Below, in pieces: positions 1-15,195 of a stretch of 64,000 nucleotides of DNA (the stretch's first letter is position 1; every line of letters begins with the position of its first letter). This DNA is from Moritella sp. PE36. GTDB taxonomy: Bacteria; Pseudomonadota; Gammaproteobacteria; Enterobacterales; Moritellaceae. The stretch spans positions 1 through 64,000 of the forward strand of contig NZ_ABCQ01000010.1 in assembly GCF_000170855.1 (NCBI RefSeq). The letters are read 5' to 3'. The notes beneath the pieces were generated by a model. It searched no databases. It saw nothing but the letters and a program-made list of their open reading frames with translations, and was not told where the DNA came from. A program made the translations under genes and the position numbers.

Positions 1-345
1 GTTGTTATTGTGGAACCTACATTGGCATCGATTCGTAGCACCAATCAGTTATTGGCAAAATTAGACGCGTTACCTTCAACACGTACATTAGTGGTGCTTA
101 ATCATACCAAGCCTGAGTCTTCATCTTTGATTACCGCCAAGGATGTGGCGACTACTCTGGATTGTAAATTGGATGCGGAAATTCCTTATGCGCCAGCAGA
201 TATGCGCGCGGGTAACTCGTTGGGTGTGTTAGCGATTAACCAAAAAAGTCGCAATGCAAAAGCATTGAAAAAACTCGTCAACTTAATTAGTGGCCAAGCT
301 CAAATAGCAAAACCAAGCTTGTTCAGCTGGCGTAAGGGGGCATAA
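1..345 (+). CDS. tadZ: TadZ/CpaE-like pilus assembly protein, C-terminal part (5' truncated by window)
   Basis: The reading frame is open from base 1 (Val-Val-Ile-Val-Glu-Pro-Thr), so the gene begins before the window and only about 114 C-terminal residues are visible. The fragment fits the end of a TadZ/CpaE ParA-like ATPase, which positions the Flp pilus machine at a cell pole. It has a V-V-L-N-H nucleotide-base-type segment and ends in the usual short basic tail. Its stop overlaps the tadA start by one base (TAATG), so the two are translationally coupled. The Walker A part lies outside the window. The assignment rests partly on synteny with tadA-G downstream. Confidence 0.75.
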   Translation, partial: VVIVEPTLASIRSTNQLLAKLDALPSTRTLVVLNHTKPESSSLITAKDVATTLDCKLDAEIPYAPADMRAGNSLGVLAINQKSRNAKALKKLVNLISGQAQIAKPSLFSWRKGA

Positions 346-1703
346 TGTTTGGATCTAGTATAACCACCTCGACGCCTATAACTGAATCTGCATTGACACT
401 CTCATTATCAACGCCTGCTACGGATGTGAGTTCAGCAAGCAGTATTGAAGAGCAGCGCTTTCGGTCCATTCAACAAGAGATCATGACGATCATTGCGCCA
501 GCTGTTGTTGTTACCTTAAGTCCGGAAGAGCTAGAGGTTCGTACATTTGCAGCGGTTGGGGATATTGCAACACGTCAGCAATTTCCAATTGGCGGGATTG
601 AACAACGCCAGATTAGTCAGCGTCTGGTCGATGAGATGCTTGGCCTCGGTCCTTTGCAGGTGTTGATGGATGATCCTGAGATCACCGATATTATGGTTAA
701 TGGACATACCGAAGTCTTTGTTGAGTATCGCGGTAAAGTAAAGCGTGCAGATGTCAGCTTTCGAGATGAAGAACATGTGTTGAACTTGGCCAGGCGTATA
801 GTCAGTCGAATTGGCCGTCGTGTTGATGAAACTACGCCTATGGTCGATGCGCGCTTGCCAAACGGTAGTCGAGTCAATGTACTTATCCCACCGCTGGCAT
901 TAAACGGTACGTGTATTTCTATTCGTAAATTTAATGATCAAAAACACAGTTTAGAACAGCTTGCTGCATTGGGCGCTATGTCAACAGAGATGGCGAGTGT
1001 GCTGAATATTATTGCTCGTTCACGTGTTAATGTATTGATCTCGGGCGGTACGGGTGCGGGTAAAACGACCTTATTGAATGCGTTGTCATTTGGAATATCA
1101 CCAGATGAGCGGATTATCACTATTGAAGATGCAGCTGAATTGAAACTACAACAGCCTCATGTGGTGAGTATCGAAACACGACCAGCAAGTGTGGAAGGTG
1201 TTGCAGCAATCGGTCAACGTGAACTGTTACGTAATGCACTACGAATGCGCCCTGATCGTATTATCTTAGGCGAGGTCCGTGGTGCCGAAGCGTTTGATAT
1301 GATGCAAGCGATGAATACGGGTCATGATGGTTCGATGTCAACGCTTCATGCTAACTCACCTCATGACGCCTTAATTCGCTTGGAAAATATGTTATTGATG
1401 GCAGAAGTAAATCTGCCTATATCGGCATTACGTCGTCAAATCGCCAGTACCTTAGAGGTCATTGTGCAAGTGGAACGTATGCGAGATGGTAAGCGTCGTG
1501 TAGTAAACATTACCGAAGTTGTCGGCCTTGAAGGTGATCAGTATCTTACCCATGATCTATTTCATTTTGATTATCAGCACATGGATGTTAATGGCGATCT
1601 TGTTGGGCAATTCTTATCGACAAAAATATTACCCCGGTTTAGTGAAAAAGCCAGTTATTACCAACTTGAATCGCAGTTAAAGCAAGCGCTAGGAGTGCAA
1701 TGA
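345..1703 (+). CDS. tadA: TadA/CpaF secretion ATPase of the Flp pilus
   Basis: This hexameric ATPase of the type II/IV secretion superfamily powers Flp pilus assembly at the cytoplasmic face. The 452 residues hold an N-terminal all-helical region, then the Walker A motif GGTGAGKTT at residues 234-242. An Asp-box-like segment (ITIEDAAEL), the Walker B region (ILGEVRG) and a His-box stretch (MSTLHANSP) follow. Length and motif order are normal for CpaF. The N-terminal 45 residues are Ser/Thr-rich and look variable. It starts inside the tadZ stop and its end overlaps the tadB start (ATGATG), so it sits within a polycistronic unit. Confidence 0.95.
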
Positions 1704-2635
1704 TGCCAGTGATTATAATTGGTTTCTCGTTATTTTTGGTGTTAATCGTGAGTAGTTGTAAAGTGCTGCAATATCAGCGGCAACGGCTCGTATTAAAGCG
1801 TCGATTAAATTTAGTTTCCGGCGTTAATTCGACAGCGAATATGGCTAGTTCTAGCTTGTTTATTTGGCAGCAGAAAACAGGACCGTTGATGGAATATGGG
1901 TTGCAGATGCAATCTCGTATTGATTCGCTTTTTGATCGTAAAACTAAGCGTTGGTTATTGATAATCTTGGCTGTTGTCGTGCTTGGCATTTGGTTTTTCA
2001 TACCATTTTTTTCATCTCTAGTGAGAATGATGATTATTGCGATTGCTTTTCCTGTCGTTCTTGGGGGGAGTTATTGGCTGATGCGTACACGTCAACATCG
2101 TGAATTTGACGCCGCGTTTACCCAAGTGCTGGGGCAAATGTCCCGTGCGGTTTCGGCTGGTATTTCGGTACCGCAAGCCATTGCGCAGATTGCTGATTAT
2201 CAGCAGGGGATGCTAGGCCGAGAGTTTAGTTTGATCCGAGATAAATTAGAAATTGGTATTGGCTTAAAGCAAGCGCTGAATCAAGCCAGTATTCGTTTGC
2301 CCTATGTTAGTTTTCACTTTTTTAGTGTCGCGCTGATATTAAATGAAGAGAACGGCGGTCAACTTAGAGAAGTGCTACATAGCCTGAGCCGTACTGTGCA
2401 TGACAATGCCGCAATTAAAATGAAGATAAGAAGTTTAACTGCCGAGCCTCGTATGACTGCGGCAATTTTAGCAAGTTTACCGATATTACTTATTGGCGTT
2501 ATGTATTTCAAAAACCCGAGTGCTTTTATTACCTTAACGCAAAGTCCAAGAGGTCATTTGGTTTTGGGGTATGTGGTGACCAGTATGGCGCTTGGTATGG
2601 CTATTATCCATTTGTTAACGAAGGTGCGCGCTTAA
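1700..2635 (+). CDS. tadB: TadB, inner-membrane platform protein of the Flp pilus
   Basis: TadB is one of the paired GspF-like polytopic proteins forming the inner-membrane platform for the TadA motor. The 311-residue protein begins with one membrane segment, has two close hydrophobic segments near residues 93-130, a cytoplasmic T2SSF-type helical domain (Q-A-I-A-Q-I-A-D region) and two C-terminal membrane segments (about 252-310). The start overlaps the tadA end, and the stop (TAATG) overlaps the tadC start. The family is assigned by topology and by its place between tadA and tadC. Confidence 0.92.
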   Translation: MMPVIIIGFSLFLVLIVSSCKVLQYQRQRLVLKRRLNLVSGVNSTANMASSSLFIWQQKTGPLMEYGLQMQSRIDSLFDRKTKRWLLIILAVVVLGIWFFIPFFSSLVRMMIIAIAFPVVLGGSYWLMRTRQHREFDAAFTQVLGQMSRAVSAGISVPQAIAQIADYQQGMLGREFSLIRDKLEIGIGLKQALNQASIRLPYVSFHFFSVALILNEENGGQLREVLHSLSRTVHDNAAIKMKIRSLTAEPRMTAAILASLPILLIGVMYFKNPSAFITLTQSPRGHLVLGYVVTSMALGMAIIHLLTKVRA

Positions 2636-3519
2636 TGACTTTATCTTTATGGATTGCTGTCGCGTTACTTATCACAGGAGCTGTGATTGCGTTGATGTTT
2701 AATGGTCAGGCTCAACGTCGAGAATTGCTGTTGCAGCGTTTGACGTTGGTATCGGTTGAACAGAGCCGCAGATTTACTCATTTACCTCAAGCAGAGTCCA
2801 CATCCAGTTTATGGCCGCGTTTAAACGTTGCGCCTGATATCTCGATGTTATTGGTGAAGGCGGGTTTTCATGGACCGCGAGCAGGTGCTTATTTTTTACT
2901 GAGCAAAATAAGCGTGATGTTAATCAGTGGGTTGGCTTGGCAATGGTATGTCGATTTTGACTTAGATAAATTTGTGTTAGCTAAAACCTTAGTGTTCGCT
3001 ATTTCAGGTGGTTTACTGGCAGAGCATTGGCTGAAATGGCGGGCGAGGACTGTCAATTATCGTATTGCTCTAGCCTTACCTGATGCATTAGATTTGATGG
3101 TTATTTGTGTTGAATCAGGTTTGACTTTAGAAGCGGTATTCCAACGTGTAGGTCATGAGATGACGGCCGTTTCACCTGAGTTATCGCGTGAATGGTTAAT
3201 TACCGAAGCGGAGTTACGTTTATTAGATTCTCGTTTAACCGCATTGAATAACTTAGCCAAGCGTACAGATTTAGTTGAAGTTGAAAACATGGTTATTGCA
3301 TTGTCTCAAGCAGAAAAATACGGCAGTAAAATAGCCCCAACGATGCGTCTGATTGCCAGTGACAGTCGCCAATATCAATATCTTCGTTTAGAAGAAAAAG
3401 TCGGCAAGATCCCTGCGAAAATGTCATTACCTGTAGTGGTGTTAATCATGCTTCCAGTAGTGGTACTGATTGTTGCGCCCACTATTATCGCCTTATTAGA
3501 CAGCATAGGAGGATTGTAA
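2635..3519 (+). CDS. tadC: TadC, inner-membrane platform protein of the Flp pilus
   Basis: This is the second T2SSF-domain platform protein, a partner of TadB. The 294 residues include an N-terminal membrane helix, two membrane helices around residues 80-130, a signature cytoplasmic segment (A-L-P-D-A-L-D-L-M-V-I-C-V-E-S-G-L) and a long hydrophobic C-terminal helix (about 262-290). The A-L-P-D-x-L-D-L-M-V-x-x-V-E-x-G block is highly typical of TadC. It directly follows tadB with a one-base overlap and precedes the TadD lipoprotein gene by two bases. Confidence 0.93.
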   Translation: MTLSLWIAVALLITGAVIALMFNGQAQRRELLLQRLTLVSVEQSRRFTHLPQAESTSSLWPRLNVAPDISMLLVKAGFHGPRAGAYFLLSKISVMLISGLAWQWYVDFDLDKFVLAKTLVFAISGGLLAEHWLKWRARTVNYRIALALPDALDLMVICVESGLTLEAVFQRVGHEMTAVSPELSREWLITEAELRLLDSRLTALNNLAKRTDLVEVENMVIALSQAEKYGSKIAPTMRLIASDSRQYQYLRLEEKVGKIPAKMSLPVVVLIMLPVVVLIVAPTIIALLDSIGGL

Positions 3520-3521
3520 TC

Positions 3522-4385
3522 ATGGCCTTAGCATTAATAAAAACAGTATTAACAAACATGATGTTTAAAAAATCGTTACCACAGCTGTTATTAATCTGTG
3601 GGGTTGTAGCCTTGACGGGGTGTAGTTCTCATCAAGCCAATATAACCGAAGATATGAAAACTGATCGTGGACTCGCACAGCTTGCACTCGAGAGTGGCCG
3701 ACCAGAGAGTGCGATTAGTATTTATCGTAACCAACTGAAAATGCAGCCAAATGATATCTCATTATTGCTGGATTTAGGCTCGGCTTACAACCAAATATCT
3801 GAGTTTGATTTAGCGTTACACCACCTTAAAAAGGCGCAATATTTGCTACTTAGTGACGCGGGTGAATTGAATGAATCAAGTAACTCGGATGAGTCGAGTG
3901 AAATTCGTGGGCAGATATTACGTGAAAAAGGCAATGCACAACAAGGGTTAGGGCAAGTGAAACCTGCATTAGCTGATTTAAAACAGGCAGTAGCATTGTT
4001 GCCTGATGATGCGAAAGCATTAAATAGTTTAGGTGTTAATTATGCGTTATTTAAAGATTATGGCCATGCCAGGACGGCGTTTATTGGGGCGTTAGCCAAT
4101 GAACCAGAGAATCTAGAATACCGTAACAACTTAGCCTTGGCTTGGATCTTAGATGGTCAGCCGCAGCAGGGTATCGATGTGCTTTATTCACACTATGCAC
4201 GTGGTAATTCAACATCTAAAAGTCGTCAAAATTTAGCGTTAGCATTTGCCATGAAAGGGGATCTTGACGCGGCCAAAGCGATTGCCAAACAAGATCTGAC
4301 TAAAGCCGAACTGGAAAATAATGTAACCTATTATCAACAATTTCAGCCGCTACAACTACTGCCGTTACAGCAGGTTAAGCAATGA
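3522..4385 (+). CDS. tadD: TadD-like TPR lipoprotein of the Flp pilus system
   Basis: TadD is an outer-membrane-associated TPR lipoprotein needed for secretin (RcpA) assembly or stability in tad systems. A lipobox (L-T-G-C, Cys near residue 34) follows a hydrophobic signal peptide. The remainder shows several TPR-like helix pairs (for example A-L-A-D-L-K-Q-A-V-A-L-L-P-D-D-A-K-A-L-N-S-L-G-V-N-Y). A shorter start at the Met about 12 codons in (MMFKK) would give a more usual lipoprotein signal, so the annotated start is uncertain. The end overlaps tadE by four bases. Confidence 0.88.
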   Translation: MALALIKTVLTNMMFKKSLPQLLLICGVVALTGCSSHQANITEDMKTDRGLAQLALESGRPESAISIYRNQLKMQPNDISLLLDLGSAYNQISEFDLALHHLKKAQYLLLSDAGELNESSNSDESSEIRGQILREKGNAQQGLGQVKPALADLKQAVALLPDDAKALNSLGVNYALFKDYGHARTAFIGALANEPENLEYRNNLALAWILDGQPQQGIDVLYSHYARGNSTSKSRQNLALAFAMKGDLDAAKAIAKQDLTKAELENNVTYYQQFQPLQLLPLQQVKQ

Positions 4386-4870
4386 CAATTCGTAACAAAA
4401 TGAATTGTAGCCAAGTAAAGCGGAGTCAGCGAGGCAGTGTCAGTATTGAGTTTGCGGTGACTATTTTACCGTTTTTTGTATTGCTGTTAGCACTCATCGA
4501 AATAAGCCGTTTTATGATGGTGAGCAGTGTTATTGATGTGGCGCTCACTTCTGCCGCTCGACAGTTGGTGGTAACAAGTGCAGGTGAAGATCTGACCAGC
4601 AAATTACAACTAACCTTGTCTGAACTAGATTTACCCTTACTTGATAGCAACAAGGTCACAGTTGAGGCTCGCTACTACACATCTTTAACGTCGCTTGCAG
4701 ATGGTTCGGGATTAGAAGATTTTCAGCAACAAGACTTTGCGGAATTCACGCTGGTATACCCTTACCAAGCGCTATTTATTTCAGGTCAGATTGATAGCTT
4801 TAGCCGTTTAACTAGCTTTAAACGCACGATCTTAGTTTCGTTAGAGGGGAGTGATAGCTATGTTAATTAA
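4382..4870 (+). CDS. tadE: TadE-like pseudopilin
   Basis: A minor pilin-like protein of the Flp pilus, probably processed by the TadV prepilin peptidase. The 162 residues begin with a basic stretch followed by R-G-S-V-S-I-E-F-A-V and a hydrophobic helix. This is the classic TadE pattern of Gly, a hydrophobic stretch and Glu at the position equivalent to +5 of type IV prepilins. The rest is a small extracytoplasmic domain. It overlaps tadD by four bases and runs eleven bases into tadF when the latter is started at its ATG. Confidence 0.88.
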   Translation: MTIRNKMNCSQVKRSQRGSVSIEFAVTILPFFVLLLALIEISRFMMVSSVIDVALTSAARQLVVTSAGEDLTSKLQLTLSELDLPLLDSNKVTVEARYYTSLTSLADGSGLEDFQQQDFAEFTLVYPYQALFISGQIDSFSRLTSFKRTILVSLEGSDSYVN

Positions 4871-5477
4871 ATCTAATATGCGCACGTTACAGCGAGGCAG
4901 CAGCGTTATTGAATTACCTGTGATCACATTTTTCATGGTCATTTTGGTGTTATTTATAGTGAGAATAAATCAAGGCATTAGCCAAAAAAATCAACTCGAT
5001 AACTTGGCTTATTCACTCACATCTATTGTTGCTTGTGAACGATGTGACAATACCATGCTTGTGTCGGGCTCTGGCTCCTCTACACCAACAGTAAAGATTA
5101 TTTCGACCGAGCTTGCTGATTATTTACTGCTGGTTGCGCAACGCCATTTCAATACTTTGATTGAGGATTCCTCAGCAGAAATTGGACTTCATGTTGAGCA
5201 AGTGGTGTTTGATTCGTCAACACAGAAATCACGATTATATGATATTAACGCTGGTGCGGAATGCTTATCGAGGCAACGGCTATTGTCCTTAACTGATTTA
5301 TCTCCAATTGGCACGACTCCAGGCTTAAATGCAGGTCAGCATGCTGAACTATTTCAAGTCACTCTTTGTATTAAAGGAATGAGTAGTATTGCGGAGGATT
5401 TCACGCCCTTATTTTTACTCCGTTTTAGTGACAGTTTTTATCAGAGCTCTGCGTTATTAATCGGGCGTGCACTATGA
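4860..5477 (+). CDS. tadF: TadF-like minor pseudopilin
   Basis: The protein starts M-L-I-K-S-N-M-R-T-L-Q-R-G-S-S-V-I-E-L and continues with a single hydrophobic helix. This is the prepilin-like Gly...Glu pattern of TadE/TadF proteins. A GTG nine bases upstream could be used, but the purine-rich GAGGGGA at 4844-4850 is spaced correctly for the ATG at 4860. The ectodomain has conserved-looking cysteines (C-E-R-C and later Cys residues) that may form disulfides. TadF works with TadE and TadG in pilus or adhesion functions. The call is by position plus N-terminal motif. Confidence 0.8.
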   Translation: MLIKSNMRTLQRGSSVIELPVITFFMVILVLFIVRINQGISQKNQLDNLAYSLTSIVACERCDNTMLVSGSGSSTPTVKIISTELADYLLLVAQRHFNTLIEDSSAEIGLHVEQVVFDSSTQKSRLYDINAGAECLSRQRLLSLTDLSPIGTTPGLNAGQHAELFQVTLCIKGMSSIAEDFTPLFLLRFSDSFYQSSALLIGRAL

Positions 5478-6682
5478 GTGTAATACAGCGTCAACGTGGT
5501 GCGATAACGTTAACATTCACCTTTATGTTGCCTGCGATAGTGAGTTTATTAGCCATTACGGTGTTTTTTGCTATGTACAGCCAAGTTGTTATTCGAGCAG
5601 GGCAAGCGGCTGATTCAGCAGTACTTGCTTGTGCTTATCAGCAAAACGACACAGGAGTGGTAACAGAGGGTATTTTGGATTATTACCGACCGAATTTCGT
5701 GCTACCGGAATTGAATAAAAGCGTCAAGTTAAACAGCAATAATGGCTGTCAGATCTCGGCGCAATATAGATTTGAACCTGCGATGGTGAACGCGCTGCCC
5801 GTTGCGATTGATAGTGATACTGAGGTTGTATCAAACAGTCAGTCAAGCGCTAAGTTGGTTCAGAATGTGAATGTGAATGGGATTCAAAATCCGGTAGATT
5901 TCTCTCTGGTTCTGGATATCTCAGGCTCGATGACATGGCATTTACCTGAGTTGAAAAAAATTATTACCGATGTAATCAGCGATATCGTTCCAAGTAGTAA
6001 TCAGGTTCGTTTTTCAATTGTGCCGTTTCAAACGGGAGTTGGTGTGAGCGGTGCGCCTTGGTTACTTAGCTCTGAAGCAAGTCCTAAGTGTGTGGATGGT
6101 CTGGTGTATAGAAACGGCAATTTAGATGCGGATAAAACTGTGCAGTCGTTAAATTATTCGTCAGACCGTTTGGATTTTAACGAAGTAACGCCGGGTCGTT
6201 GGTTAGACCGCTGTAGCGAGACTTCATTTATTTTACCACTGACAAACAACCTTAATCGTGTCATTCGCTACGTCGAGTCATTAGATACGAGTGGTGGCAG
6301 TACCGCGTCTTATCAAGGATTTATTTGGGGCGTTCGCACACTGACTGATCAATGGCAAAAAGAGTGGCAAGTCACACCTGTGCAATCATCATCCCTGACT
6401 CAGCGTTTGATCTTGTTTACTGATGGTGATGATAACCGACGAGATTATTTCAATGACTTAATGAGTGCTGGCTTGTGTGATGTGATCCAGCAAGATCTTA
6501 ATATTCAAGTTAGCTTTATTGGTTTTGGGGTGTCGGCAGATCGCATCAAGCAATTTAAGCAATGCGCAGGCAGGAATGGATCCGTGTTTGATGCTAACAA
6601 TACGGCTGAGTTAGCGGATTATTTTGAGGATGCAATCAATATCAATATTGAAACCAAGGTACGGATTGTACTGGGTGAGTAG
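5474..6682 (+). CDS. tadG: TadG-like protein with von Willebrand factor A domain
   Basis: The N terminus (R-Q-R-G-A-I-T-L-T-F-T-F and a hydrophobic helix, residues 8-38) matches the Flp/TadG pilin-like N-terminal region. From about residue 140 there is a vWA domain with an intact MIDAS motif D-I-S-G-S (Asp148, Ser150, Ser152) and the later T-D-G-D segment. Such TadG proteins are thought to act as adhesive or anchoring components. It overlaps tadF by four bases and is the last tad gene here. About 70 bases separate it from the next operon, with no obvious terminator. Confidence 0.88.
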   Translation: MSVIQRQRGAITLTFTFMLPAIVSLLAITVFFAMYSQVVIRAGQAADSAVLACAYQQNDTGVVTEGILDYYRPNFVLPELNKSVKLNSNNGCQISAQYRFEPAMVNALPVAIDSDTEVVSNSQSSAKLVQNVNVNGIQNPVDFSLVLDISGSMTWHLPELKKIITDVISDIVPSSNQVRFSIVPFQTGVGVSGAPWLLSSEASPKCVDGLVYRNGNLDADKTVQSLNYSSDRLDFNEVTPGRWLDRCSETSFILPLTNNLNRVIRYVESLDTSGGSTASYQGFIWGVRTLTDQWQKEWQVTPVQSSSLTQRLILFTDGDDNRRDYFNDLMSAGLCDVIQQDLNIQVSFIGFGVSADRIKQFKQCAGRNGSVFDANNTAELADYFEDAININIETKVRIVLGE

Positions 6683-6754
6683 AAATTAAGTCTTGTTCCG
6701 TTGTTTTATAAATCAGTTTAAAAATTAGTTAAATTAATTGTATTAGAGGTAGTT

Positions 6755-7219
6755 ATGTTTAAAAAATGGCTTGTGGTGTTCACATTATTGTTGTCTAGCC
6801 AAGCGTACGCTTATCAACGAGGCGAAATGCTTTCTGCAGCTGCTCAGCAGCAACTCGGGTTAAACCCCAATCGAGTGTCGTTAATTGATTTCTTTGCTGA
6901 GTGGTGCGTGTCTTGCCGTGCTGAATTACCTGAAGTGAATCAGTTAGTGCCGTCATTACATGCATTAGGGGTTGATGTTGTTGGTGTCGATGTCGATGAG
7001 GACGTGGCTGCAGGTATTGCGTTTCAACAATCGCTTGGATTGAACTTCCGTGTTGTTAATGATGCAAAGCAAACCTTGGTTGATGATTTTCAACCTATTG
7101 GTATGCCAGCGCTGTATTACATTTATCAAGGCCAAGTTTTAAAGGTGCGTTATGGCGCTATCAATCATATCGGTGATGTGATCATGAGTGATTTGAAAGG
7201 GATGGGGTTAGGTCAATGA
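6755..7219 (+). CDS. Periplasmic thioredoxin-like protein (CVSC active site)
   Basis: A signal peptide (MFKKWLVVFTLLLSSQAYA) is followed by a thioredoxin fold of about 130 residues. The redox motif W-C-V-S-C has Cys51 and Cys54, and the cis-Pro segment I-G-M-P-A-L-Y appears later. A TlpA/DsbE-type thiol reductase in the periplasm is likely, probably re-reduced by the DsbD encoded at the end of the same operon. It opens a five-gene unit. Its TGA stop overlaps the ATG of the next gene (ATGA), indicating coupling. The in vivo substrate is unknown; the neighbouring Cys-containing GGGGCGCN protein is an obvious candidate (inference). Confidence 0.88.
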   Translation: MFKKWLVVFTLLLSSQAYAYQRGEMLSAAAQQQLGLNPNRVSLIDFFAEWCVSCRAELPEVNQLVPSLHALGVDVVGVDVDEDVAAGIAFQQSLGLNFRVVNDAKQTLVDDFQPIGMPALYYIYQGQVLKVRYGAINHIGDVIMSDLKGMGLGQ

Positions 7220-7950
7220 AATCCTATTCACAGTTAACTTTATTGTCTTCTTCGTTGTTATTAGCCAGTTTTGGTTTGCAAGCTGCAGTAATCCAAATGA
7301 CAGAGTCAGTTTCTAGTGTTACTTATCAAGGGCTGCAGGCTATAACGGAAGTATTACCCGTGTCTAGTAAACCTGTAACAGATACTAAGCCGGTAGCTGA
7401 AACATCTGCGATCATTACAGCCCCTGTTGTGAAGGACGTAAGGAAGCTGCCAGCGTCAAAGCCTGAATTATTGATAGTTGAGTCGGCAGAGAAACCTGAA
7501 AGTAAAGTTAAGCAGGTTCCCATTATTCTTCCTTTGCCATTGAAGATAACGCCAGCAGTTCATGCGACTATTGATGTGCCAACGGTGCCAATTCAACCAT
7601 TGTCGGCGCTTTCGGTTACTCAACCTGCAGCTATAGCAACGGTAACGCATGCAACTATACCAAGTGTTATGCCAACAGTCATATCGGTTCAGCCTGTATT
7701 GAATATATCGGCATTAGTCACACCTGCGAGTAATGAAGTATATGAAGAACCGTCATTATTATCGGCTATTAGTGACTGGTTTAGCGTGAAGCCAGTGAAA
7801 CCTTGGCAAAAGGGCACTCTGGCGAAAAAGGCGATGAAACCCGGTGGTGAAGTACCTGAGTTTGATGTGTTCTCTGAAAAAGTGTTTGCTTATAAGCAAG
7901 GCTCGATTGGCGGTAATGGTGTTGGTGGTGGCGGCTGTGGTTGTAACTAA
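7216..7950 (+). CDS. DUF4266-like exported protein with C-terminal GGGGCGCN tail
   Basis: The 244-residue protein has a signal peptide (cleavage probably after L-Q-A near residue 23) and a long low-complexity Pro/Val/Thr/Ala-rich stretch (about 45-175). A conserved C-terminal module contains K-P-W-Q-K-G-T-L-A-K-K-A-M (195-207) and a glycine-rich tail ending G-G-N-G-V-G-G-G-G-C-G-C-N (232-244). As I recall the family, the C-terminal module matches DUF4266, normally a short (about 70-residue) protein found beside thioredoxin, DUF3570 and ApbE genes. Here it carries a large proline-rich spacer. The only cysteines are the two in the tail. Function is unknown; a redox or metal-linked role in the envelope is inference. 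Confidence 0.75.
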   Translation: MKSYSQLTLLSSSLLLASFGLQAAVIQMTESVSSVTYQGLQAITEVLPVSSKPVTDTKPVAETSAIITAPVVKDVRKLPASKPELLIVESAEKPESKVKQVPIILPLPLKITPAVHATIDVPTVPIQPLSALSVTQPAAIATVTHATIPSVMPTVISVQPVLNISALVTPASNEVYEEPSLLSAISDWFSVKPVKPWQKGTLAKKAMKPGGEVPEFDVFSEKVFAYKQGSIGGNGVGGGGCGCN

Positions 7951-8056
7951 AAGCACCTTGTATAGCGCATAAATAAACGCTGGTTATATCGTAAGTGATT
8001 TATAAGGAATAGCTGATAAATCACGGTTGTAATTAATTAATGATGAATGATAAATA

Positions 8057-9262
8057 ATGAATATAAAATTACCTTTAACCTTACTTGGTCTTGTTGCTGG
8101 TTCAGTATCCGCGGCCGATCATATTTCTATACACCACATGAGTTTTGAAGAATACGGTGATAAAATTAATGCCGGTGATAATCTTCTGTCATTAGAAAAG
8201 AATATTGGTTTAGATTGGACCATTACCGCCGAATTGGGCTACGACACGGTATCTGGTGCGTCACCTGCTTGGGTTGCGACTACACCGCCATCTGGATCGC
8301 ATGATCAAATTACGCAAGATGCACAGGACATGACCTCGGAAGTGATTCGTGCGGGTTATGACCCTTATCGTGACAATTACGAGATACGCCCTGTTGAGTT
8401 AGAGGATACTCGTTATTCTGCGGCAACAAATGTGACCTTCCGTGATAAAGACCGAGATGAATGGACCGTCGGCGTGAACTACTCGCAAGAGGAAGATTAC
8501 AAAAGCATGGGCGCCAATGCGAAAGTATTAATCTATACGGATAGCAGTAAAAACCGTTCGTTTAGCCTTGGTGGTTCTATTCTTTCTGATCAGACATTGG
8601 CATTTCAGGAATATCAAAATGGCGGTAATAGTCAGCAATGGGAAGACATTTTCACATCAAGCATGGAAGTCGGGATGTCACAAGTATTCACCCCTAATTT
8701 GTATGCGACCTTTACGGCTTATGGCGGTTATAAAAGTGGTTATTTGAGTAATCATTATCTTACTGTGTTACGTGAAGTAGATATTGATGGCGATGGCAGT
8801 ATTGGTGATGATGAAGTGTTTTTAGGCCAAGATTCACGCCCTGATATACGACTGTCTGGCGGGGTGAACTTACAAACCTTTTACAGTGTGAGTGACCGTG
8901 TTGTGGTGCGCCCGCGTTATAAATTCTTCGCCGATGATTGGGGCGTAATGTCACATCAACTGGGTGGCAAAATGAGTGTCAAAGTCACTGACTGGTTAAC
9001 GCTTGCGCCGGGTTATTTTTGGTATACCCAGCAAGGTGCTAATTTCTTCATTGATCCGAAAGCGGCAGACCCAACATTCGCTTCAACAGGTTATGCCACT
9101 TCGGATATTCGCTTAGGTGATTTTAATGCCAATGCCTTTGAACTGGGAGCAAGCCTTAAGCTATCAGCTAAATGGCGAGTGAATGCTTTAGCTGCTTATT
9201 ATGAGCAGAGTAATGGTTATGCCAGTCGCTGGTGGGCTGTCGGGGTAACATATGACTATTAA
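8057..9262 (+). CDS. DUF3570-family outer-membrane-type beta-barrel protein
   Basis: After a signal peptide (ending V-S-A-A near residue 20) the protein is rich in alternating amphipathic strands and ends in an aromatic strand (W-A-V-G-V-T-Y-D-Y), as in outer-membrane beta-barrels. Early in the mature part lies Y-D-T-V-S-G-A-S-P (Asp63 to Ser69), conserved in DUF3570 as I recall. It closely resembles the D-x-x-[ST]-G-A-[ST] sites flavinylated by ApbE in NqrC/RnfG. A D-x-D-G-D-G-S loop near residue 242 resembles a calcium-binding segment. The apbE-like gene overlaps its 3' end by eleven bases. The function of the family is not established. Confidence 0.8.
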   Translation: MNIKLPLTLLGLVAGSVSAADHISIHHMSFEEYGDKINAGDNLLSLEKNIGLDWTITAELGYDTVSGASPAWVATTPPSGSHDQITQDAQDMTSEVIRAGYDPYRDNYEIRPVELEDTRYSAATNVTFRDKDRDEWTVGVNYSQEEDYKSMGANAKVLIYTDSSKNRSFSLGGSILSDQTLAFQEYQNGGNSQQWEDIFTSSMEVGMSQVFTPNLYATFTAYGGYKSGYLSNHYLTVLREVDIDGDGSIGDDEVFLGQDSRPDIRLSGGVNLQTFYSVSDRVVVRPRYKFFADDWGVMSHQLGGKMSVKVTDWLTLAPGYFWYTQQGANFFIDPKAADPTFASTGYATSDIRLGDFNANAFELGASLKLSAKWRVNALAAYYEQSNGYASRWWAVGVTYDY

Positions 9263-10127
9263 GCACGCTTATGTACATCGTTTTATGGCAATGACAGTCC
9301 CTTGTGAAGTGACCTTGATTGCCTCGGACGCAGCGGGATTAGCACGGAATATTGAAGCAAATACACGCCGCTTAGAGGCAAAGTTTAACTTCTATTCTGA
9401 TACTTCAATGTTAACGAAAGCGATTAATCAACGCAGTGGTAAACGTGTGGTTATCGATGCTGAAACCCGAGATATTTTAACTAAGGTACGTGAATATAGT
9501 ATTGCGACGCAGGGGATCTTTGACATCACGGTTGGTACAGTCAAAACGTTATTGCAAAGCAGTGCGAAAACGCGTGAACAGGTCTACCAAGGTGCTGCTC
9601 CTTATATGGGATTAGCGGCATGGGATATAGAAGATAATATCTTGATTATGCATTTCCCTATTACACAATTGGATCTCGGTGGCGTGATTAAAGAAGTCGC
9701 CGTTGATCAGGCAATGGCAATTGTAGAGCAAGCGAGTAGTGGTGCGCTAATTAACTTTGGTGGCGATGTTCGCGCGTCGGGCTGTAAAGTGGATGGTAGT
9801 GATTTTGTGGTGGGGGTTGTTAACCCTCATCAACAGACGCAAGCGTTGTTTGCCTTACCACTGCGTAATCAGGCGCTGACAACATCCGCGCATTATGCAA
9901 GGCGACAACAGTTTTCAGACCAAGAAAGTTCTCATATTCTCGCGTCACAAGATACTCACCAGCAGGTTATTTCAGTGACGGTTGTTGCTGATAGCGCATT
10001 ACAAGCTGGGATCATAAGCACAGCATTAACGATTAACCCTCGCTTAACGGTTCCCGAAGAGATTGGGTTTGCATTAGTTGATGAGCAGTTGAATGTTCAT
10101 CAAAATACGGATTTTTTATTATCATGA
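9252..10127 (+). CDS. ApbE-family FAD:protein FMN transferase-like protein
   Basis: ApbE enzymes move FMN from FAD onto Thr/Ser of target proteins. Family blocks are visible: G-I-F-D-I-T-V-G (88-95), L-G-G-V-I-K (142-147), I-N-F-G-G-D-V (167-173) and a C-terminal S-V-T-V-V-A-D-S-A. Two things are odd. The usual A-D-A-x-[SA]-T-A segment reads Q-A-G-I-I-S-T-A (251-258), so the Mg-binding Asp seems to be replaced by Gly253. There is also no recognisable signal peptide, although targets in this operon are exported. It overlaps the upstream gene by eleven bases and dsbD by four (ATGA). It may be a divergent active subfamily or a non-catalytic paralogue. Confidence 0.82.
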   Translation: MTIKHAYVHRFMAMTVPCEVTLIASDAAGLARNIEANTRRLEAKFNFYSDTSMLTKAINQRSGKRVVIDAETRDILTKVREYSIATQGIFDITVGTVKTLLQSSAKTREQVYQGAAPYMGLAAWDIEDNILIMHFPITQLDLGGVIKEVAVDQAMAIVEQASSGALINFGGDVRASGCKVDGSDFVVGVVNPHQQTQALFALPLRNQALTTSAHYARRQQFSDQESSHILASQDTHQQVISVTVVADSALQAGIISTALTINPRLTVPEEIGFALVDEQLNVHQNTDFLLS

Positions 10128-12001
10128 AGTTACTTTTTAAATTAAATGATGCAATGAAGCAGCTATGTATCATGTTGCTACTGTTAACCAGTATTAGCAC
10201 TATTGCTCAGACTCAAACTAGCAGTAATACTGAATCTGAATTCCTCACGGTTAATCAAGCCTTTCCATTTTCATCACAAATATTAAGCGCTGAAGATGGC
10301 AATAAATTGGTATTAACGTTTGCCACAGAGAAGGGTTATTACCTTTATCACAAGCGTTTTTCGTTTAAGGTCGTAGATGGCGATGTCAACTTAGCTAAAC
10401 CACAATTTTCAGTCATCGCAGAACAAAAACAAGATCCTAATTTTGGTTTAGTGAAGGTTTATCATCAACCGTTAACAGTTACCTTGCCGTTTACGGGAAG
10501 TGGCAGTGTTAAGGTCCGCTACCAAGGGTGTGCTGACAGTGGTTTATGTTATTTACCCCAGCGCAAAGTGATTGAACTTGACGCTAAGGTGACCAACATT
10601 CCGGTAATGCAGTCTGTTGTTGAACCTATCAGTCCTGTTTCAAGCCAATTACTTAATGTGACAACGGCGTCAGCGAATGACAGTCAAAGTTTAGCGAGTA
10701 TGTTAGCGGGGGCTGGACGAACACAAGCCTTGTTACTTTTCTTCGTGCTTGGTTTAGGGCTTGCTTTCACCCCCTGTGTATTGCCGATGATCCCTATTTT
10801 ATCGAGCATCATTGGTGGTCAAGGTTCTGGCATGACGGGCTGGAAAGGTTTCTATATTTCGGTAGCATATGTGCTGGGAATGGCCTCAAGCTATGCACTG
10901 ATTGGCGTGTTAATGGCGACGGTTGGGCAGGGCGTTAATATACAAGCTGCGATGCAACAAACCTGGTTGTTAGTGATATTTTCGGGTTTATTTGTATTGT
11001 TAGCGCTGGCGATGTTTGGTGTTTATGAGTTGCAATTACCATCGCGTTTACAGGTCGCATTGAATAACCAATCGCAACGTTTAACGGGTGGTAAGACGAT
11101 AACGGTATTTATGATGGGCGCTATTTCAGCCTTGGTGGTTTCGCCCTGTGTATCAGCGCCACTTGCGGGTGCATTATTGTATGTTTCTACCACTCAAGAC
11201 TGGTTGTTTGGTGGTGGTGTATTGTTCGTGATGGCATTAGGCATGGGCGTACCCTTGGTGATAATCGGTACGTCGGGTGGTAAATTCTTACCAAGCAGCG
11301 GCCCTTGGATGGTCCGTGTTAAACAAGGGTTTGGCGTGATGCTACTGGCGATCGCTATCTTACTTATCAGCCGGTTTGCTGCTCCGAGTGTGACACTAGG
11401 CTTGTGGGCATTGCTTATGATTAGCTGTGCAATGTACATCAATAATATCACGAATATACAAGCAAGTCGTTTGTGGTTACGACACGTCGTGGTATTCGTA
11501 TCCTTGGTTTACGGCGCTATGTTACTTGTGGGCATGATGACAGGAGCCGATGATATAGCCGATCCGTTGCAGCATATCACTCAGCGCAGCGTTATTAGCC
11601 CAGGCGCAGAACAAGGCTCATCGCCGCTGTTTATGAAAACAGCGTCGGTGCAAACTATCGATAATGCGATCAATAACCTGCAAGCGCCCAAAGTCGTGAC
11701 CATGGTAGATCTCTACGCTGACTGGTGTACATCGTGTAAAGTGATGGACAAACAGGTGTTTTCAGACCCAAGTGTCGAAACTGCAATGACTGCAATCAAT
11801 GCGCTTAAATTTGATATTACTGACAATACCAAACCGCAATCAGAATGGATGGCGAAATCGAAGTTATTTGGACCGCCAAGTATGTTGTTCTTTGATGGTA
11901 ACGGTAATGAAATGGAGCAATTACGCGTTGTTGGTGAGATGGATAAACAACAATTTTTAGCACACCTTAAATTGGTCGCTGAAGCGGTTCCGTTAAGTTA
12001 A
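10124..12001 (+). CDS. dsbD: DsbD, thiol:disulfide interchange protein (full length)
   Basis: DsbD carries electrons from cytoplasmic thioredoxin across the inner membrane to periplasmic thiol reductases. All three modules are present. A signal peptide and N-terminal alpha domain have Cys136 and Cys142 (G-C-A-D-S-G-L-C-Y-L-P). An eight-helix membrane domain has Cys218 (T-P-C-V-L-P-M) and Cys342 (S-P-C-V-S-A-P). A C-terminal thioredoxin domain has W-C-T-S-C (Cys535, Cys538). It is the last gene of the five-gene redox operon, coupled to the apbE-like gene by ATGA and followed by a terminator. A likely client is the CVSC thioredoxin at the head of the operon. Confidence 0.95.
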   Translation: MKLLFKLNDAMKQLCIMLLLLTSISTIAQTQTSSNTESEFLTVNQAFPFSSQILSAEDGNKLVLTFATEKGYYLYHKRFSFKVVDGDVNLAKPQFSVIAEQKQDPNFGLVKVYHQPLTVTLPFTGSGSVKVRYQGCADSGLCYLPQRKVIELDAKVTNIPVMQSVVEPISPVSSQLLNVTTASANDSQSLASMLAGAGRTQALLLFFVLGLGLAFTPCVLPMIPILSSIIGGQGSGMTGWKGFYISVAYVLGMASSYALIGVLMATVGQGVNIQAAMQQTWLLVIFSGLFVLLALAMFGVYELQLPSRLQVALNNQSQRLTGGKTITVFMMGAISALVVSPCVSAPLAGALLYVSTTQDWLFGGGVLFVMALGMGVPLVIIGTSGGKFLPSSGPWMVRVKQGFGVMLLAIAILLISRFAAPSVTLGLWALLMISCAMYINNITNIQASRLWLRHVVVFVSLVYGAMLLVGMMTGADDIADPLQHITQRSVISPGAEQGSSPLFMKTASVQTIDNAINNLQAPKVVTMVDLYADWCTSCKVMDKQVFSDPSVETAMTAINALKFDITDNTKPQSEWMAKSKLFGPPSMLFFDGNGNEMEQLRVVGEMDKQQFLAHLKLVAEAVPLS

Positions 12002-12030
12002 TTCAATTCAAGTGCCCAGCGTTATAAATT

Positions 12031-12068
12031 AATGCAGGGGGGCGTCGTCATCCTCCCAGCATTTTTTT
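12031..12068 (+). terminator. Rho-independent terminator after dsbD
   Basis: AATGC pairs with GCATT, then after one A-A mismatch GGGGGG pairs with CCTCCC (one G-T pair). The hairpin is followed by a run of seven T. It lies 30 bases past the dsbD stop and ends the thioredoxin-to-dsbD operon. Confidence 0.8.
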
Positions 12069-12126
12069 GTTGTGACCTGCTAAATGTTTGGAGGGGTTTA
12101 ACATGTTATTATTTCAAAATAATTGT

Positions 12127-13683
12127 TTAAATAAGATTTTTAAACAAGCTTGTCCCGCCTTTAAATACGCGCTTAAATTGTGCTGACGCGCTGGTATTGC
12201 CCCCCTCTAAACGCTGCCGATTACGTTGCACGTTAATGCTTGCATCGACATTATTGGCAATCAGTTGTTCTAGACTTTCCTGTCCCCACGTCTTCGAGTC
12301 AGTTGAAAACGAAGTCGGGATGATCGTATCGAAGCCAAGTAACTTTTGGTTGTACTCAATGGCTTTGTTAATCGTCATCACTTTTGCTGAATCAGATTGG
12401 GTTAAATCATACGGTGGTGACCATTCAGATGACGGTTTTAACTTATCAACTTGGTTTAAAATCCCGGTGATCACGGGCTTCTTTCGATGCAAGTTATCTT
12501 TATGCGCGTAAAATTCATCTAAGCTAAGCATGAATTGACGATCAAGCTGTCGTGATGATTGGTTGGCTTTTAGCACCCACAACACCATATCCGCATTGGT
12601 TACATGCTTAAGCACTGTTTTGTTGGTCTGTTCATTACCATCAAGGCCGGGCAAATCAACCAAGTTTAGTACTTCAATATCACTAACAGCACAGCTATAA
12701 ACATGTACTTCGCTGGTGGAGGGCAGGGCGCTTACTTCTGCGTCAAGCGCCCCTTTTATGGTGTTGATAAGCGACGACTTACCGGCACTGATTTGTCCGA
12801 TCACTGCAATCCGTAAGGGTTCCAGTTGTTCTGGCTGACGGCTTTCATCTTCAACTGCGATCGTGCTTTTGTTAATATCGCTTTCTTCAATGGAAAAACG
12901 ACCACTGTATAAATCAATTGCAACCGCGGCGACTTCTTGCAGAAACGCTCTTTTCATATTGAGCTGTAAATTGGCTCCGACATTCCCAGCCATATCTCCG
13001 AGTAACTTGTTACGCACTTCTTTGGCTATCGCTGCAGCAGGATTGATGAACTGATAAACCCGATAAGCTTTACTGAGTACGCCAGCGGCTTGCTTGCCGG
13101 TTGCAATTTTATCTTGATGGTTATAGGCGAATTTTAAATGAGAGACTTTAATGTTTTCGACAAAGGGCACGTTCTTTTTGAGAATTGCGCGATAGCGGCG
13201 ACTCACTTCTTCCAATAGTTTTAACCCGTCAGTGACCGAAAATTGCAGATTACCACGGGAAAACTCTTCGGCGGTGGTATTCGCTATAACAAGACCGTGT
13301 GTTTTTAACGATCCCCATGCATCATCTTCGGCAAGTTGTGCTTCAATCTGTTGGTTAAGACGTTGCCAAATTGAATTTTCGGCATCAGACCAATCGGCAG
13401 AGGCTGTCACTAAGCTGTCTTCAGGTACACTGTTTTCAGGCATTCGCAATTCAGCTATTTTCACTTGGGCTTTTTGACGTAATAGTAGCAGCGGGATATA
13501 AGAGAGCAGGAATGTAGCGACTAATACAATCGCAAACTCCAGAGTATAGCCATATTGAATAATGGCATATAAACCAAAACCACACAGTACCAGTACAGGC
13601 AGGAATACCGCTAATGTCAGCACTGTGGTTACACCTGCCGAGAGGTTATTTAACTGTGTCAGGCTGTTCTTAACGCGTTTCAC
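12127..13683 (-). CDS. Membrane-associated dynamin/Era-like GTPase
   Basis: The 518-residue protein has two hydrophobic helices (about 17-45 and 47-68), a long helical middle region and a C-terminal G domain. Walker A is G-Q-I-S-A-G-K-S (296-303), followed by D-L-P-G-L-D-G (G3) and N-Q-V-D-K (G4). The start is a GTG inside the end of the upstream 365-residue GTPase gene (14-base overlap), so the two are probably co-translated. Related proteins are annotated only as GTPase or YcjX/YcjF-like. A membrane-stress or trafficking role is speculation. No promoter is visible between the two genes. Confidence 0.8.
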   Translation of the reverse strand: MKRVKNSLTQLNNLSAGVTTVLTLAVFLPVLVLCGFGLYAIIQYGYTLEFAIVLVATFLLSYIPLLLLRQKAQVKIAELRMPENSVPEDSLVTASADWSDAENSIWQRLNQQIEAQLAEDDAWGSLKTHGLVIANTTAEEFSRGNLQFSVTDGLKLLEEVSRRYRAILKKNVPFVENIKVSHLKFAYNHQDKIATGKQAAGVLSKAYRVYQFINPAAAIAKEVRNKLLGDMAGNVGANLQLNMKRAFLQEVAAVAIDLYSGRFSIEESDINKSTIAVEDESRQPEQLEPLRIAVIGQISAGKSSLINTIKGALDAEVSALPSTSEVHVYSCAVSDIEVLNLVDLPGLDGNEQTNKTVLKHVTNADMVLWVLKANQSSRQLDRQFMLSLDEFYAHKDNLHRKKPVITGILNQVDKLKPSSEWSPPYDLTQSDSAKVMTINKAIEYNQKLLGFDTIIPTSFSTDSKTWGQESLEQLIANNVDASINVQRNRQRLEGGNTSASAQFKRVFKGGTSLFKNLI

Positions 13684-14767
13684 TTTTCGCTACCTCTTTA
13701 ATATTTGCTAGGGCGTCTTTGTATATCGTTTGCATGTCCTGATTCGATACAACTTCGCCTTTGCTCTTATGATACATGTATTTGCACGCTGCACGGCCAA
13801 TGGCATAGGTAGATGCAAAGCTAATCACTGCCGCGGATGCACTACCTATGGTTTGCCCGTAAGCAGGGATTAATTTGACTAATTGGCGAATACCGAACTT
13901 AGATGCATATTGGAAAGCAAAACCCGACCCTAACGTGCCGATAAATTCTGCAAATGCTTGTTTATCCCAATCGACACCGTATTGGTTGGCTAAACTGTGT
14001 AGCATTTTTGCTTGGATACTCGGCACGGCAACCAAACCAACCGCCGGAATTGCATCTGCTGCGCCAGCAGAACCCGCATACCAGAGTACTTCTGTTTTTA
14101 ATGTTTGAAAATTAGCACCTTCGGTATCGGCATGTTGCTGCTGGTGATTAAACTGTTGGATAATCGGTAATAATGCCGTTAGCTTGTCTTTTAACGTTGA
14201 AATGCCAAATGTATCGCCGTTAACGAGTTCGAAGTCGACCTCGACGTGCGGAATTTCACCACCCCATACTTTTTCGAACTGTTGTTGATTGTATTGCACC
14301 GTTTTAGCTTGCTCATCAGCACTGAGTTGCTTAACTGCGGTATGGATGACTAAGATCTGCTTGATTGAATTTTGTTTTTTAATCTTCTTTAGTGCGTTAA
14401 TGACATCACTTTGTTCAGGTTCTTCTGCTTTGGCAATGACAAGTAAAGCATGGCCTTGTCGCGCACTGATTTTAATATCGTCAGCAGGATCGTAATCCGC
14501 TTCTGATAACCCTCGGGTATCAAGAAAACGCAGTAACGGCGTCGCTTTAGGATAGCTATACGCGTGTGATGTCATGGTACAAGGCTCGAATCCATTACCG
14601 ACTTCAACATCACTATCACCCGTGATCGCTTGGATTAATGATGATTTACCTGCGCCCGTTTTACCCAATAACCATAATGTTGGTAAATGGATATTTTGAT
14701 ACTCGAATGCTTTGGATATATTTGGGTTTTCACTAGGGTTAAAGAATTCTTTAATGGCATCAAACAT
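13670..14767 (-). CDS. GTPase with C-terminal DUF697 (YcjF-like) domain
   Basis: An N-terminal G domain has Walker A G-K-T-G-A-G-K-S (35-42) and L-D-T-R-G-L as G3. At the G4 position the sequence reads I-H-T-A-V-K-Q, which departs from the canonical [NT]-K-x-D. The C-terminal half (about 220-330) resembles DUF697, with Gly/Ala-rich helices (A-D-A-I-P-A-V-G-L-V-A-V-P) that may insert in or lie on the membrane. It is upstream of, and overlaps, the 518-residue GTPase gene. The pair presumably forms a heteromeric GTPase (inference from coupling). Its substrate is unknown. Confidence 0.8.
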   Translation of the reverse strand: MFDAIKEFFNPSENPNISKAFEYQNIHLPTLWLLGKTGAGKSSLIQAITGDSDVEVGNGFEPCTMTSHAYSYPKATPLLRFLDTRGLSEADYDPADDIKISARQGHALLVIAKAEEPEQSDVINALKKIKKQNSIKQILVIHTAVKQLSADEQAKTVQYNQQQFEKVWGGEIPHVEVDFELVNGDTFGISTLKDKLTALLPIIQQFNHQQQHADTEGANFQTLKTEVLWYAGSAGAADAIPAVGLVAVPSIQAKMLHSLANQYGVDWDKQAFAEFIGTLGSGFAFQYASKFGIRQLVKLIPAYGQTIGSASAAVISFASTYAIGRAACKYMYHKSKGEVVSNQDMQTIYKDALANIKEVAKSETR

Positions 14768-15195
14768 GACTTAATAGCTCTTTGTGTTAATGGTGAAAGA
14801 TATTGATGAAAACGATGAGCGAAAATAAACATACAAGAAATAGACGCTATAACCAAGCGTTGCGGATAATACAAATGTCCAGTCATATCATTCTATGATG
14901 TCACCGACAATTAATGCATATGCAATGTTGGACCACATGATTATAACCAATATGATTGGCGATAGTGCTGCACCTAGCATTTTATTATGACTTCGTTAAT
15001 GATAAAAACTGCAATATTAATAACTTTTGTTATTTATTCATATTGTGTTTTAAACAATTATTTAGAATATGACATAAACCTCGAGTCATTTATCTACAAC
15101 ATGGTTGCTTATGCTTAGTTAATGAAATAGAGGTATATCCTTCCTAATATGTTCAGTTTTATAATGATTATTCTAGTTTCAAAAGGACAATCGCC
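14768..15195. other. 428-base divergent intergenic region
   Basis: AT-rich spacer between the minus-strand GTPase operon and the plus-strand GAF-GGDEF gene. It should contain both promoters. I see no convincing operator, RNA gene or conserved reading frame. An AAAGGAC ribosome-binding site precedes the ATG at 15196. Confidence 0.5.

Follow-up and report, generated by a model that had tools for sequence, protein, structure and literature searches.

What five consecutive genes for a thioredoxin, a DUF4266 protein, a DUF3570 protein, an ApbE-like flavin mononucleotide (FMN) transferase and DsbD do together is the question raised by positions 6755 to 12001 of the window, that is, the 64,000-nucleotide stretch of Moritella sp. 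PE36 (contig NZ_ABCQ01000010.1, positions 1 to 64,000) analysed here. A preliminary description, made from the DNA alone, regarded them as one electron path to the outer membrane whose role had not been described. For the set as such the latter is wrong, since the combination was published in 2021 by Méheust et al. (PMC8238504), whose text also contains the flavinylation of a DUF3570 and a DsbD-fed model, the function being called uncertain by the authors. What the preliminary description did not include are the tad genes upstream and the fact that the ApbE lacks a signal peptide. Judged from gene content and order, a Tad (type IVc, Flp) pilus operon, with tadZ to tadG at window positions 1-6682, ends on its 3' side in these five genes, and the reading that they form, as the distal part of this operon, an envelope electron relay coupled to attachment is given a probability of roughly one half.

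The pilus genes, all on the plus strand, begin with the 3' part of a cpaE-like tadZ (1..345; open frame of 114 amino acids, aa) that is cut by the contig start and has an intact homologue directly before tadA in another Moritella genome, G008 (L164, 11426-12253). They continue with the tadA/cpaF ATPase gene (345..1703; TIGR03819, 7.8e-102, 340.9 bits, which does not reach the curated threshold of 373), tadB (1700..2635) and tadC (2635..3519), both matching PF00482 T2SSF (8.6e-22 and 9.7e-15, respectively), tadD for a TPR lipoprotein (3522..4385; PF13432 TPR_16, 1.8e-11; lipobox-like N-terminus by eye), tadE (4382..4870; PF07811 TadE, 1.3e-08), tadF (4851..5477; PF16964 TadF, 7.8e-29) and tadG with a VWA domain (5474..6682; PF00092 VWA, 2.8e-07). 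In G008, flp, rcpC, secretin, cpaD and tadZ genes lie upstream of these, and the window contig begins inside tadZ. Most tad genes overlap or abut, and the series then continues into the five-gene set, with 72 bases between the tadG stop and the thioredoxin start on the same strand; across the 45 loci measured, four of which are duplicate records, this distance ranges from -128 to +92 nt when longest frames are taken. No sigma-70-like promoter was found on the plus strand from 5400 to 10676, and Rfam gave no match at gathering scores in window 1-16000. A terminator-like hairpin follows dsbD (12037..12056, plus strand) but is a consensus match only, with 8 such sites in the region against a shuffle mean of 6.2. 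From this arrangement, tadG to dsbD are presumably co-transcribed.

The five open reading frames of the set stand where the preliminary description placed them, also on the plus strand, and are supported by Pfam and NCBIfam. The first (6755..7219, 154 aa; PF00578, 3.4e-11) encodes an exported, ResA/TlpA-like periplasmic thioredoxin with a CVSC site, a signal-like N-terminus by eye and ResA proteins as the best solved relatives. The second (7216..7950, 244 aa; PF14086, 1.1e-16, residues 194-244) is a long form of DUF4266 that ends in GGGGCGCN, thus bearing the C-terminal CXC motif, and that has no lipobox by eye and a linker predicted to be disordered (mean pLDDT, the predicted local distance difference test, 53.5). 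The DUF3570 gene (8057..9262, 401 aa; PF12094, 1.9e-78), the ApbE gene (9252..10127, 291 aa; PF02424, 2.1e-40) and the DsbD gene (10124..12001, 625 aa; NF001419, 2.2e-172; DsbD_N, 5.1e-25; DsbD_TM, 4.9e-83) complete the set. With 574.6 bits, DsbD exceeds the 330 bits that NCBIfam requires for protein-disulfide reductase DsbD, and it contains, by eye, three cysteine pairs at what we take to be the usual pair positions of DsbD. The gene overlaps already noted are real (4 bases for thioredoxin/DUF4266 and for ApbE/DsbD, 11 bases for DUF3570/ApbE), and the gap before the DUF3570 gene, given as about 105 bases, is 106. The same five-gene order was found again in other genera, and the closest DUF3570 proteins among the named loci are those of Moritella (89-94% identity), followed by the next genus at 70-71%; the view that the five genes constitute one set is supported.

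The association with the pilus is not a peculiarity of this genome. In an order sample of 295 genomes, searched for TadA at E <=1e-60 with no more than five candidates scored in each genome, the 114 matches listed fall into two score groups, 13 at 554 bits or more and 101 at 467 bits or less, and DUF3570 was found within 20 kb of all 13 high-scoring matches and of none of the 101 others. The 13 genomes comprise nine Moritella, three members of family f21, that of Vibrio, and one of family f11, and they are also the only 13 of the 295 with a window-type TadG above 230 bits. In one further genome (G153, L024) tad genes stand beside DUF3570 on a short contig, its TadA match being located at the edge of another contig and counted among the 101. 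Among the DUF3570 loci fetched, tad genes lie beside DUF3570 in 13 of 60 order loci, which are the window-type group, in none of 20 class loci and in 34 of 38 named loci, five of which repeat order loci. Of the named loci without tad genes, L157-L159 (Betaproteobacteria by title) have none and L147 starts too close to tell; those with the link belong to Moritella, Vibrio, Photobacterium, Colwellia, Pseudoalteromonas, Marinobacterium and two further lineages. Mirror-tree correlations of 0.90-0.97 among TadC, TadF, TadG, thioredoxin, DUF3570, ApbE and DsbD (29 loci) fit joint inheritance but mostly track the species tree and are not counted as evidence.

The linked pilus loci have further features in common. 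In all seven loci with about 20 kb of upstream sequence (four Moritella, two f21, one f11), Flp is accompanied by a large lipoprotein and a divergently encoded lipoprotein. The Lcl_C domain (PF07603) was detected in the three large lipoproteins scanned (L164, L168, L150), while the two divergent lipoproteins scanned matched no Pfam family; a poly-Asp stretch is present in six of the seven divergent lipoproteins, L165 being the exception. The divergent lipoprotein at L164 2768-4801 (minus strand) and its relatives also carry, where read, a CxDxNxNxxC-like motif. For comparison, 18 of the 101 other Tad loci were fetched together with the flanks of tadA, 13-14 kb on the downstream and 12-20 kb on the upstream side, two of the upstream stretches being cut by contig ends: neither the five genes nor the divergent lipoprotein was found in any of them (tblastn, E <=1e-4), and the large lipoprotein gave one weak match of 42 bits (L217). 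A tad pilus has been reported in piezophilic Colwellia and strain GAB14E in a paper whose main text contains no thioredoxin, DsbD, flavin or DUF (PMC7542103), and no report of a link between DUF3570 sets and Tad, or of flavinylation before export, was recognised in searches of the open-licence literature.

Outside the pilus loci, DUF3570 has varied company. It occurs in 75 of the 295 order genomes, at 103 places, of which 60 were fetched together with 20 class places chosen from a longer list, the 38 named loci and six phylum-level ones, and three locus types can be distinguished. Type A, that of the window, is linked to Tad and has a DUF4266 protein of 154-290 aa in the order sample and 152-485 aa in named relatives; in type B the longest DUF4266 frames of the order sample measure 69-121 aa, mostly with a lipobox by eye, and ApbE is usual. 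The own genome of the window contains a type B set as well (G000, contig C72, L003 5055-8149, minus strand), with a TlpA-like CTPC protein, a 70-aa DUF4266 lipoprotein, DUF3570 and ApbE, and no DsbD beside it. Type C (L052-L071) combines thioredoxin, DUF4266 and DUF3570, with no same-strand ApbE in 18 of 20 loci and no SGA[ST] motif, the flavinylation site, in 13 of 20. A protein family of about 900 aa accompanies 18 of the 20, and the one member scanned shows hydrazine-synthase-alpha and weak cytochrome c matches; a swap of flavin for haem is possible in these sets. In L102-L105, DUF3570 is fused to a Met-/His-rich C-terminal region that by eye resembles a second barrel (895-917 aa in total).

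The preliminary description had made its shared pathway depend on DUF3570 and DUF4266 homologues usually occurring with ApbE and DsbD, and here the two partners part company. ApbE lies within 5 kb on the same strand in most cases (38/60 order, 16/20 class and 37/38 named loci), but DsbD does so in only 15/60 and 3/20, rising to 28/38 named loci and to 26 of the 34 Tad-linked ones, and some of the misses are due to contig ends (e.g., L024, L043, L154). DsbD thus appears to be an optional partner of DUF3570, to be expected with regularity in no more than a part of the Tad-linked branch. The text of the published survey counts 285 DsbD clusters in 275 genomes, typically with ApbE, DUF3570 (227), thioredoxin-like proteins (183) and DUF4266 (221), and 316 clusters without DsbD (PMC8238504). 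The motif and the transferase go together: of 115 loci, 85 have both SGA[ST] and ApbE, 14 neither, 12 the motif only and four ApbE only. Near the DUF3570 N-terminus, three and two SGA[ST]-type motifs stand in a row in L054 (5923-7182) and L057 (5344-6603), respectively, with ApbE nearby.

The suggestion that this DsbD is a dedicated copy fared well in the genomes compared. Among 11 chosen genomes of family f21, two DsbDs were found in all three with the set and one in all eight without it (E <=1e-30), and the set's DsbD as an ordinary housekeeping copy was rejected for the Vibrio family on this ground; in a twelfth genome, G044 of f11, the set comes with one DsbD only. All nine Moritella genomes with the set encode a full DsbD and the two without it do not, and all 11 genomes have a frame of 156-164 aa that matches the DsbD N-terminal domain only. 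One such lone domain (L099 1447-1905, Moritella G010) lies beside a gene that is FxsA-like by eye. The housekeeping dsbD of Moritella thus seems, from its sequence, to have been reduced to a lone N-terminal domain. The window's own genome also encodes two other DsbD_TM proteins, longer and ScsB-like, ScsB being the name we assume for them.

The second feature missed earlier concerns the place of flavin attachment. In an alignment of 94 ApbE sequences from DUF3570 loci, four of them duplicate records, MGT is changed to M[AT]xPC or similar (Cys in 92/94), KG to KE (93/94) and the Asp of TAD to Gly (93/94), while the conserved K, D and GGD motifs are kept; the exception, L062, lies on the opposite strand of a type C locus and is canonical in the changed motifs. 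In the window protein, Gly occupies the position that corresponds, when the motifs are matched, to D280 of E. coli Ftp, which serves as a metal ligand according to the accessible text of PMC4767422, and one might guess from the sequences that the Glu of KE replaces the lost Asp. Signal peptides were judged by a 12-residue hydropathy test: a hydrophobic stretch precedes the ApbE motif in two of 90 distinct sequences, namely L062 and L148, in the latter within an over-long frame inside DUF3570, and by eye no hydrophobic N-terminus exists in five more ApbEs of phylum level. Within the N-terminal 45 residues, a hydropathy of at least 2.0 is reached by 3/96 ApbEs, compared with 49/50 DsbDs, 94/116 thioredoxins, 95/119 DUF4266 proteins and 42/120 DUF3570 proteins, whose frames often start too early. 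If ApbE was meant to be one of the "four exported proteins" of the preliminary description, it has to be removed from that list. The absent signal peptide and the Asp-to-Gly change suggest that FMN is probably attached before export. According to the accessible text of PMC12052999, in which DUF3570 does not appear, cytosolic ApbEs that serve soluble fumarate reductases are known, and being in the periplasm was important for the classic enzyme. The text of PMC8238504 reports that Chlorobium luteolum DUF3570 was flavinylated on co-expression with its own ApbE in E. coli, the pair being produced by a strategy "similar" to one using signal-truncated proteins and DUF3570 being found mostly in the pellet; modification of an unexported chain is therefore chemically possible, and that it takes place in nature is what we infer.

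For the barrel itself, the earlier assignment to the outer membrane is supported by Pfam and by an AlphaFold2 model with 16 predicted strands (pLDDT 79.5; predicted template modelling score 0.77), which resembles outer-membrane barrels according to Foldseek and VIA-align; no sequence relative among solved barrels was found at E <=0.1. In the model, the links after odd strands measure 4, 33, 2, 13, 35, 4, 29 and 4 residues and those after even strands 3, 5, 6, 2, 4, 4 and 4. The single SGAS site (residues 66-69; 8252..8263, plus strand) lies near the outer end of strand 3, on the modelled long-loop side, which by the usual rule is extracellular. One long loop contains an EF-hand-like segment, DIDGDGSIGDDE (residues 242-253; 8780..8815, plus strand), and EF-hand profiles match weakly at residues 236-254 (E 0.1 and 0.14).

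The gene set with its order and linkage, the motifs, the fold class and the ApbE's missing signal can be read directly from sequences or models; what we infer for the following scheme are all electron steps with their direction, the acceptor and the use during attachment. Before the DUF3570 precursor is exported by Sec, its SGAS serine would receive FMN from cytosolic ApbE. DsbD would pass electrons to the CVSC thioredoxin, which would reduce the CxC in the CGCN end of the DUF4266 protein, a secreted and largely disordered chain; the Gly-rich tail of this protein could then enter the barrel from the periplasm and reduce FMN, from which electrons would reach an acceptor outside the outer membrane. 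Because it lies inside a Tad locus that encodes an Lcl_C lipoprotein and usually one with poly-Asp, the set is probably active while the cell adheres to a surface or particle. A more specific version, tentative and rather doubtful as a whole, is that of a Tad machine with its own outer-membrane electron outlet, in which Flp pili and the Lcl_C lipoprotein grip a particle, a cytochrome-free wire of DsbD, thioredoxin, DUF4266 and FMN barrel discharges onto the bound surface or molecules, and the barrel is flavinylated in the cytoplasm by a distinct signal-less ApbE subfamily and then crosses SecYEG.

Several observations count against a relay tied to attachment. No cysteine is present in any of 14 window-type DUF3570 sequences, so that the step from DUF4266 to FMN is without precedent in the evidence seen, and the CXXCH haem motif is absent from all five proteins, leaving the set with no known surface reductase. 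Flavinylation in the cytosol would require the flavinylated chain to pass SecYEG. In seven of the 34 Tad-linked named loci (one of them, L153, a short contig) thioredoxin, DUF4266, DUF3570 and ApbE are present and DsbD is absent within 5 kb, so another electron donor must serve there, and the four loci with ApbE mentioned above lack the canonical SGA[ST]. Finally, the linkage in the order sample comes from three families only, with nine of the 13 genomes being Moritella.

The cysteines of the pilus proteins invite another explanation, namely disulfide quality control, in which DsbD and thioredoxin would correct the disulfides of the large surface lipoproteins and of TadF and TadG, with the flavin barrel as electron acceptor or donor. 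Six cysteines of TadG are indeed widely conserved (37-45 of 45 sequences) and two of TadF invariant (35/35), and the lipoproteins of the seven loci contain cysteines too, 8-11 in the large and 5-8 in the divergent ones. However, 4-8 cysteines are also found in the protein that takes the place of TadG in the 18 other Tad loci (of 101 listed), although the five genes are absent there (tblastn, E <=1e-4), so that Tad pili can manage without the kit, which weakens a dedicated role in Tad disulfide folding, and 67 of the 80 order and class loci have a DUF3570 set with no tad genes in the fetched stretch; this explanation is considered unlikely. The same relay might instead handle metals, with Fe(III) or some other metal being reduced at the surface so as to be taken up or detoxified, and not as part of attachment, as could be suspected from the 25 DUF3570 clusters with the VIT1 iron transporter counted in the text of PMC8238504, the poly-Asp stretch in six of seven neighbouring lipoproteins and the fused Met/His-rich regions in four class-level loci. 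Since acidic and Met/His-rich stretches name no specific metal, and no metal transporter was recognised among the window genes beside the set or among recurrent type A neighbour families (the latter mostly by eye), metal handling is regarded as quite unlikely.

Two other readings question parts of the argument. The signal-less ApbE might not be the transferase of DUF3570, which would then be modified by one of the two canonical lipoprotein ApbEs of the own genome, both with lipobox signals, or not at all; the loss of the Asp that maps to D280 would agree with this. Yet the same changes in 93 of 94 sequences, with the other motif residues kept, and the co-occurrence of SGA[ST] and ApbE argue for conservation rather than decay, and working cytosolic ApbEs are known from the accessible text of PMC12052999, which makes this reading improbable. 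Nor does a neutral neighbourhood, in which the set follows tadG by chance, explain why tad genes stand beside the set in eight named lineages, with short same-strand gaps in the six that can be measured, or why the TadA subtype and the set correspond one to one among the matches listed for the 295 genomes, with no Tad locus of the subtype found without the set. The association within Moritella and that within Vibrio could each go back to one inheritance, but nothing speaks specifically for chance, which is thought very improbable.

A relay coupled to attachment would place a known but unexplained redox kit in a concrete setting: the kit seems to be built into an attachment machine in several marine genera. 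For DUF3570 systems, in which PMC8238504 has demonstrated the cofactor and, in its main text, settled no job, the Tad link offers such a setting in culturable bacteria. If correct, a cytochrome-free electron route through the outer membrane would join the few kinds known, an outer-membrane flavoprotein flavinylated before SecYEG would represent a new sequence of steps, and the signal-less ApbE raises the general question of whether proteins can be flavinylated before export. Two GTPase-like genes on the minus strand face the operon (window 12127-14767), the one at 12127-13683 matching MMR_HSR1 and dynamin, and both also adjoin the operon in six other Moritella genomes.

Among known systems, 16-stranded barrels also serve as exopolysaccharide channels in BcsC and PelB. 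DUF3570 is 8-11% identical to these and has no TPR scaffold, but a flavin site instead. The window ApbE has PF02424 in common with canonical ApbE/Ftp and differs from it in the absence of a signal peptide or lipobox, in M[AT]xPC and KE, and in Gly for the metal-ligand Asp. With the systems of PMC8238504, as its text describes them, the window shares DsbD, a thioredoxin-like protein, the C-terminal CXC of DUF4266, the [S/T]GA[S/T] of DUF3570 and ApbE. It is distinguished from them by its embedding in a Tad operon (the words "pilus" and "pili" are absent from their main text), by an ApbE without signal, by the DUF4266 form, which in Tad-linked relatives measures 152-485 aa with no lipobox by eye, by one SGAS site rather than two conserved motifs, and by a thioredoxin that matches PF00578/PF00085 and not the PF13899 named there. 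With Tad/Flp loci it shares TadA to TadG, and Flp, RcpC, secretin, CpaD and TadZ were seen upstream in Moritella G008; a gene for a protein of 198-228 aa comes after tadG in 12 of the 18 Tad loci fetched for comparison, whereas the window locus has the redox set in that place.

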